Shown one piece after another: positions 15,490-33,398 of a DNA stretch of 44,403 bases (positions within the stretch are counted from its first letter, which is position 1; each line of letters begins with the position of its first letter). Source of the stretch: Orenia marismortui DSM 5156. Lineage in GTDB: Bacteria; Bacillota; Halanaerobiia; Halobacteroidales; Halobacteroidaceae. The position numbers and the translations under genes were made by a program. The stretch lies in NCBI RefSeq assembly GCF_000379025.1, contig NZ_KB900617.1, positions 1-44,403 on the forward strand, given 5' to 3'. The notes beneath the pieces were generated by a model that ran no database searches, was not told the origin of the DNA, and saw only the letters and a list, made by a program, of their open reading frames with translations.

Positions 15490-16653
15490 TTAAATCTCCT
15501 CCTTTAAATTATCTGTGACTTCTTTTAACTGACTTTCGTCAGGTATATATTGAACCTTGATTTGATCAAGGAGTTCAAACCTACAATCAGCTAATACATC
15601 TTCAACCTGTCCAATACTCTGTCCCCCCCATCCATAAGAACCAAAAGCTAATCCTATTCTGTTCTTAGGTGCTAAACCTTTTAAATAAGTTAAAAAGGCT
15701 GCTACTGATGGTAACATATTATTATTCAAAGTAGGTGATCCTACACAGATGTATTTAGCTGTTAAAACCTCTGTAATTATATCTGACCTATGATTTACAT
15801 CCAAATTCATCATCTTTGTACTAATCCCTTTGCCTTCAAAAGCATCTTGTATAGCATAAGCAAGCTTCTTAGTAGACTTCCACATCGTATCATAAATTAT
15901 CAATGCTTTTTCGTCAGTTTCATTAGCTGACCATTTTTGATACTTCTCCATAATTTCTGTTACAAAACTTCTCCAAATAACACCATGGGATGGTGCAATT
16001 ATATCAATCTCTAGACCTTTAGCCTTTTCTAAAACTCCTTGTACCTGCCTTCCATAAGGCATTACAATATTTGCATAGTATTTTTTAGCTTCTTCCATTA
16101 CAATATCAAAGCTTGCTTGATCAGCAAATCTCTCTGAACTAGCATAATGTTGGCCAAAAGCATCATTAGAAAATAAAATTTTCTCCTCTGGTAAATATGT
16201 TACCATATTATCTGGCCAATGTACCATTGGGGTTAAAACAAAGTTTAAAGTCCTTTGACCTATATTTAACTCTGTTCCTGGCTTAGCAACCTCAAAGTTC
16301 CAATTTTTACTATCATAATGTGCCTCTAAACCAGCTTTTCCCTTTGGAGATGTGATAAGTTTAGCATTTTTAGCAACTTTCATCAATTGTGGCAATCCAC
16401 CAGAATGGTCCATCTCTACATGGTTAGATATTACATAATCTATTTTAGATGGATCTATAATACTAGAAATCCTCTCTATCATTTCATCATATAGATAATG
16501 TTTAACAGTATCTATTAGTATAACCTTCTCATCAATAATTAGATAGGCATTATATGTAGAACCCCTTTGAGTTAAGTACCCATGGAAATCTCTTAAATCC
16601 CAATCTATACCTCCTACCCAATATATATCTTTTTTGATTTCTTTTGCTCTCAT
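15490..16653 (-). CDS. fprA: flavodiiron protein (FprA-type A-type flavoprotein)
   Basis: Four-electron O2 reductase (or NO reductase) of anaerobes. Metallo-beta-lactamase-like domain with diiron ligands H78, E80, D82, H83 (HVEMDHSGG), then His in TPMVHWPDN and PSHGVIW. C-terminal flavodoxin domain from about residue 250 has FMN-binding loops (IIYDTMWKSTKK, GSPTLNNNMLP, GSYGWGG). 387 aa is typical. First gene of the fprA-dfx(-rbr) unit. Its ribosome site TAGGAGGT lies 4-11 bases before the ATG and its surroundings (16657-16674) are complementary to the candidate Fur-controlled sRNA at 32735-32840. A Fur-like box lies about 160 bases upstream. Confidence 0.95.
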   Translation of the reverse strand: MRAKEIKKDIYWVGGIDWDLRDFHGYLTQRGSTYNAYLIIDEKVILIDTVKHYLYDEMIERISSIIDPSKIDYVISNHVEMDHSGGLPQLMKVAKNAKLITSPKGKAGLEAHYDSKNWNFEVAKPGTELNIGQRTLNFVLTPMVHWPDNMVTYLPEEKILFSNDAFGQHYASSERFADQASFDIVMEEAKKYYANIVMPYGRQVQGVLEKAKGLEIDIIAPSHGVIWRSFVTEIMEKYQKWSANETDEKALIIYDTMWKSTKKLAYAIQDAFEGKGISTKMMNLDVNHRSDIITEVLTAKYICVGSPTLNNNMLPSVAAFLTYLKGLAPKNRIGLAFGSYGWGGQSIGQVEDVLADCRFELLDQIKVQYIPDESQLKEVTDNLKEEI

Positions 16654-16811
16654 TACTTTACCTCCTAAATTAATCTAAATAGAATATCCTGCATATCCCC
16701 TATAAAAAATAATTTCTGCAAAGATATTTTCCTTTATATATTATATTAGATACTATTAGTAACAATTCCTTTTTTTAATAAGTAAAAATTTAATTTTTTT
16801 GGTTTATTTTT

Positions 16812-16830
16812 GATAATGATTTTCATTATC
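16812..16830. promoter_or_regulatory. Fur box upstream of fprA
   Basis: GATAATGATTTTCATTATC is an 8-3-8 inverted repeat matching 17 of 19 bases of the classical Fur box. It lies about 160 bases upstream of fprA in the 420-base gap between fprA and bioY. A possible fprA promoter (TTGTTA, then TATAAT about 16 bases on, minus strand near 16740-16765) lies between the box and the gene, so the box would act from upstream. No other element was seen in this gap apart from the bioY promoter and operator. Confidence 0.6.
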
Positions 16831-24665: not shown

Positions 24666-25022
24666 TTATCTTAAATTATTTATACCTAGAGAATTGTCAC
24701 TAGAAGTACTTAAATCTTCACTATCCTCTTCCTCATCATCTTCTATTGCAGTAATATCTCCTTCTGTAAATAAAAACTCACGCAAGTACTCATCCCACTG
24801 AGGATAATTGCGCCTTAACCATTCTAATCCCATGCAAGCATGTTCGATCTCTTCATCACGATTATGTTCTACTATTGCTTTAATTTGTGGATCTTTAGTA
24901 GCAGCCGCCCGCTGATTATACCAATCTACAGCCTCCAGTTCTTCGATTACACTTTGAATCATCCGGTGAAATTCTTTTACTTCTTCAGGTAAATTTGCTT
25001 CATGATAACCTTCACTTCCCAT
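24666..25022 (-). CDS. encapsulated ferritin (EncFtn) cargo protein
   Basis: Half-ferritin that oxidises and mineralises iron inside the encapsulin shell. From the ATG at 25022 the protein is 118 aa. Residues E28 and E58/H61 (EELEAVDWYNQR, RDEEIEHACM) match the inter-subunit ferroxidase ligands E32, E62 and H65 of the Rhodospirillum protein. A disordered acidic tail (about 89-107) ends in the encapsulin-targeting peptide SLGINNLR. The frame extends to 25058, but GGGGAG 8 bases before ATG 25022 decides the start. First gene of the operon, with its own promoter at 25069-25097. Confidence 0.93.
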   Translation of the reverse strand: MGSEGYHEANLPEEVKEFHRMIQSVIEELEAVDWYNQRAAATKDPQIKAIVEHNRDEEIEHACMGLEWLRRNYPQWDEYLREFLFTEGDITAIEDDEEEDSEDLSTSSDNSLGINNLR

Positions 25023-25060
25023 AATTTTAGCTCCCCTTCCGAAATTGTTAGTAATCATTC

Positions 25061-25097
25061 TTATTACTATTATAATAAAGTGATGTCATATTGTCAA
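25061..25097 (-). promoter_or_regulatory. sigma-A promoter of encFtn-enc with PerR-like box
   Basis: On the minus strand TTGACA (25092-25097), 17 bases, TATAAT (25069-25074), both consensus. Overlapping the -10, TTATAATAGTAATAA (25061-25075) matches 12 of 14 defined bases of the PerR box TTATAATNATTATAA. A PerR repressor there would switch the compartment on under peroxide stress. Confidence 0.65.
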
Positions 25098-25317
25098 GAA
25101 AAAGCAATATGCCCAAATATAAACTATTATCTATTAAGAATTCTGTTTCATCCTATATATATTAATTCCAAAAATAGTTCATTACTAATTTGAGTAAACA
25201 AATATAGGTTGTACAAAAATATAAAATTCTTAAAAATTATAAAACATAAAAAATACTCTTCTGGTTATTATAATAAATAAGTATAAATTATCATAAAAAA
25301 TAAAGGAGAATATCATT

Positions 25318-29483: not shown

Positions 29484-30479
29484 TTAATCTTTTAACTTTA
29501 AAATATAATCATAGGCTACTAATGCAGCTTTTGCCCCTTCTCCTGCTGCTATAATAATTTGCTTAAAGGGCACAGAAGTTACATCACCTGCTGCAAAAAC
29601 TCCTTCAACACTAGTTTTACTACCACAATCAATCTCTATCTCGCCATACTTATTCAAACTCAACTTATCTGCAACAAAATCTGTATTTGGAACGAGACCT
29701 ACTTCTACAAAAACTCCATTTATATTAACCTCTTTTTCTTCACTAGATTTATTATCCCTAAGTATAACAGTCTCTACCATTTGCTCCCCTTTAATTTCTA
29801 ATACTTCATGTTCAAATAAGATCTCTACATTATCAAATTGCTTTAATTTATCAATCAGAACTTGATCTGCTGTTAATTTATCTAAGTCTTGGACCAAAGT
29901 TACATGTTCTGCTACTTTAGCTAAATCAATAGATGCCTCTATTCCCGAATTCCCACCACCAACAACTACTACTCTTCTATTCTTATACAATGGGGCATCA
30001 CAAGTAGCACAATAGGAAACCCCTCTTCCAGTTAACCTTTCTTCTCCTTTAACCCCCAAAGTTCTAGAAACCTTACCTGTTGCAATAATAAGTGCTCTTG
30101 CTTTGTAAGTTTGCCCCTCTGTAGTTGTTAATTTTTTAATTTTATCGTTAACATTTATAGCTGTAACTTTAGACCTTTCTTTAAATCCTATTTCAAATTG
30201 TTTCACTTGAGCTTTAAACTTATCTACTAACTGTACTCCTTCAATATATCTATATCCAATATAATTCTCTATATCAACTGTATAAAGTAATTGCCCTCCT
30301 ATATCTTCTGTAATTAATCCAGTATCAATTCCCTTTCGCATACAGTAAACAGCAGCTGCTAATCCTGCTGGCCCACCCCCAACAATTAAAATATCATAAA
30401 TTTTATCACTCTTTAAAGGAACGGCTTTATTGTTTGCTTTGTCATCTTCAGATAAATTCAAACTCGAATTAATATCCAT
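29484..30479 (-). CDS. AhpF-like FAD/NAD(P)H disulfide reductase without N-terminal domain
   Basis: Thioredoxin-reductase-fold flavoprotein, 331 aa. FAD motif ILIVGGGPAGLAAAVY, redox CxxC in YCATCDAPL, NAD(P) motif VVVVGGGNSGIEASIDLA, C-terminal FAD motif GVFAAGDVTSVPFKQIIIA. The sequences TVDIENYIG, DQVLIDKLKQFDNVEILF and FVEVGLVPNTDF are closer to the AhpF flavoprotein core than to typical TrxB, but the tandem thioredoxin-fold N-terminal domain of AhpF is absent, replaced by about 26 polar residues. A partner glutaredoxin or peroxiredoxin would be encoded elsewhere. A GTG at 30482 is possible; GGGGGAG favours ATG 30479. Confidence 0.85.
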   Translation of the reverse strand: MDINSSLNLSEDDKANNKAVPLKSDKIYDILIVGGGPAGLAAAVYCMRKGIDTGLITEDIGGQLLYTVDIENYIGYRYIEGVQLVDKFKAQVKQFEIGFKERSKVTAINVNDKIKKLTTTEGQTYKARALIIATGKVSRTLGVKGEERLTGRGVSYCATCDAPLYKNRRVVVVGGGNSGIEASIDLAKVAEHVTLVQDLDKLTADQVLIDKLKQFDNVEILFEHEVLEIKGEQMVETVILRDNKSSEEKEVNINGVFVEVGLVPNTDFVADKLSLNKYGEIEIDCGSKTSVEGVFAAGDVTSVPFKQIIIAAGEGAKAALVAYDYILKLKD

Positions 30480-30563
30480 CACTAACTCCCCCTTATAACA
30501 GAAATAAACTTTAAAATAAATTACTCTTATTTAATATAATTCTCAATTTATAATGCTTTTATT

Positions 30564-30584: not shown

Positions 30585-30700
30585 GATATCCTCTCTAACA
30601 TAAATCATTTTAAAGCTTTATTTGAACCTTATAATAATTTAATAAATTTAGAATATTAGTTAATAAAGTAGGACCAGCCTCACGGCTGGGACCCCTTGTC

Positions 30701-30732
30701 AAACTGTACGTACGGTTTTCCCGTATACAGCT
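30701..30732 (-). ncRNA. group II intron domain V
   Basis: A 32-base hairpin beginning AGC (the catalytic triad) with a GAAA-type loop in ACGGGAAAACCGT and a complementary 3' arm ending CAGTTT; followed by the domain VI stem formed by CCAGCC and GGCTGG. Confidence 0.8.
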
Positions 30733-30807
30733 TTCGGTTATTGGTGCTCCTTATCAGAGAGTAAGTCTTCGACTCTATGTTACCATAGATGTATATTTTA
30801 CCCTTAA

Positions 30808-31975
30808 TTAGAGCACATCAGTAAGTAATGATTGAAGTCCTTTATCTCTTAGATAACTATTTGAAAAGCGATAATTTTGATACATTATCGCCTTTTTCTT
30901 TTCGATAAACGAACGCATTCTCATTCTAATCCATTTATCCAACCTCGTAAACAAAGTCTTCACATTTCCTATCTTGAAATAGTTACCCCAACCTCTCAAA
31001 ACTGGATTTAATTTTGCAATTATTACTTCTACAGGAAAAGGTCTAGTTCTTCTAGTAATCTTTCTTACTTTGTTTTTGAATTTTGTTATTGCTTTATCTT
31101 TAGGTCTCTTGTATTCAGAATGGTGAAATTTGAATCCTAGAAATTCAAATCCATCATAAAAGTTAGTTACTACCGTCTTACGAGGATGAAGTTTCAACTT
31201 CAATTCATCCTCTATAATTTTACGGGTAACTTTTAACGCTCTCTCTTTGCTTTCGCTTATTTTTAGTTAAGATTACAAAGTCGTCAGCAAAGCGGACTAT
31301 TTTGTAACCTCGACGAGTCATTTTCTTATCAAAGTAATGTAAATAGATATTAGCTAATAGAGGAGAGATGACACCTCCTTGAGGTGTCCCTTCTCTAGTT
31401 TCTTCTCTACCTTCTTCAGTCATAACTCCAATTGTCAGCCATGACCTGATAATATCTAATACCCAACCATCACTTATATATTCCGCTATAAAATCCATTA
31501 ATAACTCATGGTCTATAGTATCAAAATAAGATTTAATGTCTGCGTCTACCACCCAGTAGTAACCTTGTTCTTTATATTTCTCTATCTTTTCTATCGCATC
31601 GTGAGCAGCCTATTAGGTCTGAAACCAAAGGAACATTCACAAAATTCTCGCTCAAAGTATATTTCTAGTACTTGCCTCACTGCTTGTTGAGCAATTCTAT
31701 CTTTGATTACTGGAATACTAGTTGGTCTCTTTTCTCCATTTCCTTTGGAAATGTACGTCCGTAACACTGTGTAATGGCTCGTAAGTATTCTCTATCAGCT
31801 GTTTCTATGAAGTTCTCGCATATTCATCTTGTAATTATTTTTAAACTCTTCTATGCTTACATTATCAACTCCACCACAGCCACCATTATCCAGTACTTTT
31901 TGTCCTGCAATATATAAGTGAAATTTCTTTGTGATTTTATCCTTCAAACTATATAGAGTTCGAAATTTTAACACC
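30808..31975 (-). pseudogene. ltrA: group II intron reverse transcriptase/maturase, frameshifted
   Basis: All parts of an RT are recognisable but in different frames: a start-proximal segment (GGVDNVSIEEFKNN), then SIPVIKDRIAQQAVRQVLE and SFGFRPNR, then [39 protein letters not shown] and RFADDFVIL (the catalytic FADD), and finally a maturase/thumb segment (KLHPRKT, GFEFLGFKF, RGWGNYFKIGN). One-base losses near 31610 and 31740, a stop near 31795 and a frameshift near 31210 break the gene. The intron RNA could only move with a maturase supplied in trans. Confidence 0.85.
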
Positions 31976-32734
31976 TATCCTAACTTCACTACTTACTAGT
32001 TCTTCCTGTCTCACCTTAATATCTTAATCCCTATATTCATAGCACTCCTGAGCACGTCTCTAAGCTCTCACCAATCGCACCTCTCAGTTTACCATTACTT
32101 AGGTTATGGTGTTCTCTAGGTTATCCATACTTTACAGTTATGATTTCCTGTTTGTAATTCTACTAGAACCCACTATAGTACTAGTGTTTAAACCACTCAA
32201 AATTAAGATATCATTAGTAATCAAATCTTAAACTTCAATAACCTAGATATCCTTCGCTATAATCAACTTTCGTTGATTTTTTTTCTCACTACTATGATAT
32301 CTTCTGAACTCTAATATATCATCACTCTGGCTTTCCTGTTGGAGTTATACCATCACTTATCTCTATAGATTTCTATAAAGAATTATATTAGAGATTCCCT
32401 CGGTCAATTACGTAAACCCTACAATCATTCCGACCCTAATCACACCTAGTTTTCTAACATGGGCACTTCCAGTTACACGTATTTACCAGCGCTACCTGTC
32501 TCTCCTTTGTACAGAGCCCCAAGCTAACATTGGACTTCCCCGTTTTTATGGCGGGTCGCCAAAGCTAAATGCCACCTCTGGTTCACATATTGTTCCGGAC
32601 TGATTGCTCATCTCAAACTCTTCAGATTCTACCTCACGGTAGACACCCTGCTACTGTTGATTTCACACACCGTACTGGCGAAAACAGCATGGATAGGATT
32701 TTCACCTACTGTTTACTAAATCTACGAGGCACAC

Positions 32735-32840
32735 ATAAAAAAAGGCTAGCAGTAATTACTGCTAGCCTTAAGCTCTAAATAATGCTATTAATTTTAGGAG
32801 GTAAATCATATAAAACAAAATTAATTGATAATTATTATCA
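32735..32840 (-). ncRNA. candidate Fur-regulated small RNA with anti-Shine-Dalgarno segment
   Basis: Transcription from the promoter at 32847-32875 would start at about 32840 and run only about 105 nt to a strong terminator (perfect stem 32742-32769 followed by eight U). There is no ribosome site or credible reading frame. A single-stranded-looking AU-rich stretch carries ACCUCCU (complement of 32796-32802). Bases complementary to 32793-32805 match the fprA translation-initiation region over 13 contiguous bases, plus 5 more after a one-base bulge. Architecture resembles iron-sparing sRNAs such as RyhB or FsrA in logic, not in sequence. It could instead be the leader of a lost gene. Confidence 0.5.
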
Positions 32841-32875
32841 ATTACTATTATAACAATTAATCTTATCTTTATCAA
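32826..32875 (-). promoter_or_regulatory. sigma-A promoter with perfect 7-1-7 Fur box
   Basis: Minus strand: TTGATA (32870-32875), 17-base spacer, TATAAT (32847-32852). Directly downstream, TGATAATTATTATCA (32826-32840) is an exact match to the Gram-positive Fur consensus TGATAATNATTATCA, covering about +1 to +15, where binding would block transcription when iron is replete. Confidence 0.75.
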
Positions 32876-33149
32876 GAGTTTTTTAGTTCTTAGTTAAATC
32901 GATTTATATTTTTTATCTATATTGGTAAATTAGCAATATTATTATAAAAGTTTTTTTATACTATTGATAACTAATATCATTCATGTTATAATTAATAAGG
33001 ATTAACTCTTTAAAAATTTCTTCTGCTAATAGAGGTCTACTATTAAATCTCCTCTATAAGATTATAACCCTCAGCATCTAATACTTCAAGACACCATAAA
33101 AAAATCAAATAAACAAAATGAGATAACATAACAAAAGGAGAGATAAATA

Positions 33150-33398
33150 ATGAAATCAACAGGTATTGTTAGAAAGATAGATGAATTAGGTAGAATTGTT
33201 ATTCCAATTGAATTAAGAAGAACGCTAGGTATCGATGTAAAAGATCCATTAGAAATTTATGTAGACAATGATAGAATTATATTTAGAAAATATGAGCCTG
33301 CTTGTACTTTCTGTGGAAATGCTAGTGATACCATAGACTTTAAAAATAAAATTGTTTGTAATGAATGCATCACTGAGATGCAAAATAATATTGCTTAA
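33150..33398 (+). CDS. AbrB-family transition-state regulator
   Basis: 82 aa. N-terminal AbrB/SpoVT swapped-hairpin DNA-binding domain (MKSTGIVRKIDELGRIVIP, ELRRTLGIDVKDPLEIYVD). The C-terminus holds a CxxC...CxxC zinc-ribbon-like pair (CTFCGN and CNEC), common in clostridial AbrB homologues but not in the Bacillus subtilis protein's multimerisation domain. AAAAGGAGAG lies upstream of the ATG. Stand-alone gene followed by a terminator. The 310-base upstream gap shares its left part with the sRNA and has a small TAGAGG/CCTCTA hairpin near 33029-33056. Confidence 0.88.
   Translation: MKSTGIVRKIDELGRIVIPIELRRTLGIDVKDPLEIYVDNDRIIFRKYEPACTFCGNASDTIDFKNKIVCNECITEMQNNIA

Follow-up and report, generated by a model that had tools for sequence, protein, structure and literature searches.

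Iron-sparing RNAs and the Orenia locus

The characterised iron-sparing RNAs under Fur control come from Bacillus, Staphylococcus and Gram-negative bacteria (passages of PMC9410917 and PMC12871923). FsrA of Bacillus subtilis is a Fur-regulated iron-sparing small RNA (sRNA) of 84 nt (passages of PMC12871923 and PMC9410917), while IsrR of Staphylococcus is 174 nt long and combines two Fur boxes with three stem-loops and three C-rich regions (passages of PMC9410917). Here we describe a candidate RNA gene of comparable design in Orenia marismortui DSM 5156, located on the minus strand of a 44,403-nt stretch of contig NZ_KB900617.1 (hereafter, the window). On these predictions the Orenia RNA would be like FsrA in its Fur-type control, short length, C-rich pairing with ribosome-binding sites and iron-protein targets, and differs in having one CCUCCU core where FsrA has C-rich regions (passages of PMC12871923 and PMC9410917). 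With IsrR it would share a Fur box at the promoter, C-rich pairing with Shine-Dalgarno sites and iron-sparing targets, but it is only about 105 nt long, with one box and one core (passages of PMC9410917). RyhB and PrrF of Gram-negative bacteria follow the same Fur-repressed, iron-saving logic; however, they belong to another phylum than Orenia, and are described as Hfq-dependent and lacking C-rich Shine-Dalgarno binding (passages of PMC9410917).

Compared with 4227 Rfam families, the whole window gave no FsrA match at gathering level, nor did positions 32650-32950 up to E 10 (best sub-threshold family Esr41, E 0.12, 20 bits where the cut-off is 102), nor loci L114, L115, L346, L351 and L299 up to E 1. 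Rfam does hold a model of FsrA. The Orenia RNA appears to resemble FsrA and IsrR by function, belongs to neither of them and matches no Rfam family. In open-licence PubMed Central we found no paper combining Orenia and small RNA and recognised no report of an Orenia sRNA, and the papers found there on Halanaerobium, small RNA and Fur look unrelated by their titles and abstract openings.

The promoter, Fur box, fold, conservation, lack of a conserved reading frame, independence from the downstream gene and complementarity to iron genes seen at this locus point to what is probably the gene of a Fur-repressed, trans-acting, iron-sparing sRNA. With iron present, Fe-Fur sitting on a palindrome at the start site would block the promoter; when iron is scarce, an RNA of about 105 nt would be made, with its own terminator as the end point. 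The core of this RNA, UUACCUCCUAAAAU, consists of ACCUCCU and specific flanks, and ACCUCCU also occurs in the 3' tail of 16S rRNA. The core would pair with the Shine-Dalgarno region of the mRNAs for ferritin, the diiron flavoprotein FprA and nitrogenase component 1, and in a second Orenia genome also for a NifU-domain scaffold and desulfoferrodoxin, keeping ribosomes off these messages and sparing iron for essential uses. If this is true, the anaerobic, halophilic Halanaerobiia have a separate iron-sparing RNA that reaches the same solution with a different sequence, and ferritin and nitrogenase are suggested as sRNA targets.

Architecture and conservation of the predicted RNA gene

The window's genome (G000, 3.46 Mb) was compared with the other two Orenia genomes, G001 and G002, the latter apparently Orenia metallireducens. 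The promoter proposed in a preliminary description of this DNA, TTGATA-N17-TATAAT, is present on the minus strand (32875-32847) and scores 11/12. Its -35 element TTGATA (32870..32875) is TTGACA in G001 and G002, while the -10 element TATAAT (32847..32852), which follows a 17-bp spacer and has TG before it, is invariant in all three genomes. The Fur box TGATAATAATTATCA, an exact 7-1-7 match at 32826..32840, likewise lies where it had been placed, at about +1 to +15. This palindrome, TGATAATTATTATCA, is the sole exact copy in the window and one of three in the G000 genome. In a sample of 1214 AT-rich windows of 85 nt, drawn from 400 kb of G000, none reached its score of 14/14. The best 7-1-7 match of the sRNA's box falls from 14/14 in G000 to 12/14 in G002 and 10/14 in G001; because the G001 score is so low (equalled in 358 of the 1214 random AT-rich windows), Fur control of that copy is less certain. 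Against a longer consensus the G001 box scores 14/19, which was reached by 41 of the 1214 random AT-rich windows.

The predicted sRNA of about 105 nt (32736..32840, minus strand) has its ends placed by promoter and terminator and contains no conserved reading frame. None of 200 shuffles folds as well as the G000 transcript (z -4.0); with the three RNAs compared, the z values are -4.4 in G000, -4.4 in G001 and -2.9 in G002. Between the Fur box and the terminator, inside 32791-32804, sits the C-rich segment UUACCUCCUAAAA with the ACCUCCU that had been pointed out before; its invariant part, ACCUCCUAAAAU (32791..32802, minus strand), is where the RNA is proposed to pair with mRNAs. The CCUCCU bases are left unpaired in the predicted G000 folds and in the minimum-energy fold of the G002 RNA. 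The G001 minimum-energy fold pairs three of the 12 core bases, and the G000 centroid structure pairs the AAAAU end. The intrinsic terminator hairpin (32742..32769, minus strand) has a stem of 12 bp and a 4-nt loop in the RNA. The earlier figure of 14-bp arms arises because the DNA is a 28-nt palindrome; the hairpin itself was correctly described, but the U tract after CC counts seven residues (T at 32743-32737) rather than eight. With its own promoter and terminator and no conserved open reading frame, the locus has the predicted features of an independent short transcription unit.

The same block adjoins the same divergent gene for an AbrB/MazE-domain regulator (33150..33398, plus strand in the window), used here as a synteny marker, in all three Orenia genomes. 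The copies in G001 and G002 (loci L114 and L115) consist of TTGACA-17-TATAAT, a GATAAT-type box, ACCTCCTAAAAT and a terminator, so that the relatives hold a conserved promoter-box-core-terminator block and not an mRNA continuing into a protein gene, the finding that would have spoken against the preliminary description. After the -10 element, 58 of 119 columns are identical across the three species, including the 12-nt invariant core. The only invariant runs of at least five columns are TATAAT, ACCTCCTAAAAT and CAGTA, and a 12-column run was matched in 67 of 10000 column shuffles. Terminator stems vary in sequence between species, each still folding as a strong hairpin; covariation in these three sequences was not above that of shuffles (62/500). 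At the divergent promoter of the abrB-like gene, TGATAACTAATATCA overlies the -35 element (window 32964-32992, plus strand) and matches the Fur box at 12/14 positions, with a similar box in all three Orenia.

A covariance model built from the three Orenia copies recovers them at E 1e-16 to 1e-24 and gave no convincing copy in the 56 other genomes searched in the class. Outside Orenia its best match (genome G043, E 3e-5) is a distinct C-rich element; all others have E 0.06 or worse. As far as tested, the sRNA gene thus appears restricted to Orenia; a diverged copy elsewhere could be missed, as the search was run with Infernal's stricter filters. BLAST of the 146-nt element against 61 genomes gave some match in 23, and the 11 non-element loci inspected proved to be short AT-rich or box-like matches; plasmids gave no match to the element. 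The pattern TACCTCCTAAAA alone is present in 50 of 59 genomes; read on the opposite strand, it is a strong Shine-Dalgarno site. A pattern applied across the phylum (398 genomes) had two matches, which say little because its spacing fails even on the window's own copy, while a looser class-wide pattern recovered all three Orenia copies. Among the 22 other matches of the phylum- and class-wide patterns, the 11 inspected were coding starts or coding sequence, as judged by eye. The G043 element (C37:3185-3316, plus strand; L299), from a different family of the class, comprises a promoter, a box-like sequence, the C-rich UACCCCUUAAUCACC and a terminator, and is possibly of the same functional kind as the Orenia sRNA.

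Two bases past the U tract in the window begins a group II intron (30660..32734, minus strand, 3' end approximate; RF00029 at 30735-30663; RVT_1 and GIIM domains), which is not part of the sRNA. Its 5' end is placed by the consensus at the GTGTGCC at 32734. The intron is missing from the same place in G001 and G002 (L296, L297). The protein it encodes looks broken, since separate frames carry its RVT_1 and GIIM parts (30808-31552, minus strand). Bacterial-C introns insert just after intrinsic terminators (passages of PMC8919778), and the window's intron is like them in its position after a terminator. Further downstream lies a gene for a pyridine nucleotide-disulphide (TrxB-like) oxidoreductase (29484..30482, minus strand), also not part of the sRNA. 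In the gap between terminator and TrxB-like gene in G002 lies a possible long, GC-richer hairpin, as judged by eye (L296:1742-1836).

This arrangement invites the reading that the element serves, under Fur control, as 5' leader or attenuator for the TrxB-like flavoprotein gene: strand and order are the same in all three genomes, with a gap of about 355 nt to the gene in G002 and of about 137 nt to what is left of it in G001. However, a terminator is present in each species, an intron of about 2 kb intervenes in the window, and the G001 gene has decayed to an 87-codon remnant while promoter, core and terminator stay intact there. Because of the intron and this decay the element can hardly be the gene's leader, and we set that highly improbable reading aside. 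Still harder to credit is a small protein gene, be it a minus-strand frame of 13 codons including CTCCTA or a plus-strand frame behind AGGAGGT. AGGAGGT does stand at the usual spacing from a plus-strand ATG in G001 and G002, and a minus-strand ATG occurs at the same place in G000 and G002. Yet the plus-strand frame has 16 amino acids in G001, 39 in G002 (the frame changing after an indel) and no start in G000, whereas the minus-strand ATG is ATA in G001 and its frame has no visible ribosome site upstream in any of the three copies. With neither frame nor start conserved, both versions were rejected. A chance promoter-like assembly in AT-rich DNA, beside a terminator serving merely as an intron target, seems equally far-fetched: such DNA does yield many promoter-like matches (19 observed in the 2.2-kb region against 11.6 expected), but the whole block is kept in order across three species and the exact Fur palindrome is rare.

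Predicted targets in the three genomes

The core complement, ATTTTAGGAGGTRA, was searched with at most one mismatch in the three Orenia genomes, giving 84 sites, from which 83 distinct contexts were recovered. When a gene-start match is defined as a site lying 4-13 nt upstream of the start codon in a frame that is 45 codons or longer, there are 39 such matches (15 in G000, 13 in G001 and 11 in G002). A Pfam scan covered 34 of them, leaving out three frames below 60 codons and two judged internal, and recognised six iron proteins: ferritin (G000 and G001), a NifU-domain protein (G001), FprA/ODP (G000), nitrogenase component 1 (G000; read as NifD from sequence) and desulfoferrodoxin (G001). Among 60 random background genes of G000, the only one recognised as encoding an iron protein was that of a radical SAM enzyme. 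The enrichment has a Fisher p of 0.008 with an iron grouping defined after the hits were seen, and of 0.02 either with ferritin counted once or with DUF116 also counted as iron (2/60). RNA genes aside, the only perfect 14-mers at gene starts belong to ferritin (G000) and the NifU-domain gene (G001). The target search from the CCUCCU segment, advised in the preliminary description, thus yields an excess of iron genes across the three genomes together; in G002, no recognised iron protein appears among the products of the 11 gene-start matches.

Within the window, the predicted target site AATTTAGGAGGTAA (16658..16671, minus strand) is the ribosome-binding site of fprA (15490-16653), the gene named earlier as the window's best complement, and it does rank first of 35 gene starts chosen from 48 open reading frames. 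A one-mismatch Fur box (16811-16825) lies in the interval that separates fprA from a divergent gene; control of fprA may thus be transcriptional as well as by the sRNA. Elsewhere in the window, an encapsulated-ferritin-like gene (24666-25103, minus strand) is preceded by TTGACA-17-TATAAT and then GTAATAAGAATGATTAC, with a weak covariance match (E 0.7); by Fur-box score, even its best site does not rise above background.

Pairing energies were ranked against 321 gene starts out of 400 kb of G000, each Orenia species' own RNA core being paired with its own genes. Ferritin, fprA and nifD each rank 6 in G000 (5 of the 321 background starts equal or better), where the NifU-domain gene ranks 74 and desulfoferrodoxin copy b 110. 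The G001 ranks are 4 for both ferritin and the NifU-domain gene, 33 for fprA, 90 for nifD, and 35 and 246 for desulfoferrodoxin copies a and b. In G002, pairing is mostly poor (ferritin 82, fprA 146, nifD 149, NifU-domain 51, desulfoferrodoxin copy a 164 and copy b 45). Genes of relatives in which no RNA copy was found were paired against the G000 RNA. There, ferritin ranks 180 and 255 (two genomes) and fprA 292, 150 and 105 (three genomes), and in view of these poor values, the pairing of ferritin and fprA seems specific to Orenia. In such relatives the NifU-domain gene has ranks of 12, 107, 18 and 23 (12 in G004, 18 in G006, 23 in G007), and on account of the good ones its match may only reflect a strong ribosome site. 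The core was used for these energies since those of the whole RNA body may be inflated by long AT duplexes; with the whole body, 5, 3 and 17 of the 321 background starts equal or better ferritin, fprA and nifD, respectively. The strongest of the 321 background starts belongs to a NuoF-like Fe-S subunit.

Some of these results would also suit a real Fur-controlled sRNA with another job, its CCUCCU broadly damping strong Shine-Dalgarno sites or serving one unknown target. In the scan, 28 of the 34 gene-start matches are not recognised iron proteins, eight Fe-S-motif genes taken as a group had no pairing shift (p 0.76), most of the predicted targets pair weakly in G002, and genomes without a found RNA copy have a NifU-domain match of almost the same quality. 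We nevertheless regard such a role as unlikely, given that iron genes are enriched over random genes (6/34 against 1/60) and that predicted pairing with three of the targets depends on the flanks of the core. When the flanks were shuffled and ACCTCCT kept, the energy was as good in only 17 of 300 cases for ferritin, 19 of 300 for fprA and 3 of 300 for nifD, but in 123 of 300 for desulfoferrodoxin copy b. Sequence evidence as a whole supports the reading first offered for this locus, an RNA made under iron starvation that would block ribosome binding.

A second candidate C-rich RNA and other Fur boxes

A second sRNA-like candidate occurs at G002:C23:30426-30611 (plus strand; L351:1530-1712) and G001:C6:69059-69244 (minus), the two copies being 93% identical, and is matched at G000:C1:134468-134663 (minus; E 4e-9) and at G004:C5:96407-96590 (minus; E 3e-5, lacking the first loop sequence). 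It has a near-consensus promoter, a Fur-type box of 13-16 out of 19, C-rich hairpin loops (UUCCUCCCCUU and AAGCCUCCCUU) and terminators; CCUCCCC is found in three copies and GCCUCCC in all four. Two-sided changes in at least one sequence keep 10 of the 37 pairs of its predicted structure. It adjoins an fprA paralogue in G001, G002 and G004, with rubrerythrin and desulfoferrodoxin genes also nearby in G002, and does not favour the iron targets of the first RNA (ranks 93-185). One may tentatively picture, though we would not expect it to prove right, that Orenia spares iron by two Fur-type sRNAs, a system that arose separately in Halanaerobiia. The first would copy the ribosome's anti-Shine-Dalgarno sequence, add specific flanks and so compete with the 30S subunit for the ferritin, FprA and nitrogenase messages, and the second would act as a C-rich-loop RNA, its hairpin loops encoded beside a diiron flavoprotein gene.

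Fur-family proteins number four in G000 and three each in G001 and G002. Genome-wide, boxes with at most one mismatch are only modestly more frequent than a reversed-pattern control (26 against 18, 21 against 14 and 30 against 15). Five of 15 inspected loci with a box of at most one mismatch lie inside genes. Other inspected boxes precede a Fur-family gene in G002 and, in G001, genes for pyruvate formate lyase, rubrerythrin, an Rrf2 regulator and a [2Fe-2S] thioredoxin-like protein, a set consistent with an iron or peroxide regulon. The box before pyruvate formate lyase, CGATAATTATTATCA (G001:C5:64376; L199), also occurs at G000:C5:59819 and G002:C5:155475, the gene itself having been checked in G001, and hints at an iron-sparing switch of pyruvate metabolism. 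A perfect Fur box at G000:C2:335328-335342 (L201) follows a promoter-like sequence; no long reading frame is evident over several hundred bases, and the site may mark a long leader or a further RNA.
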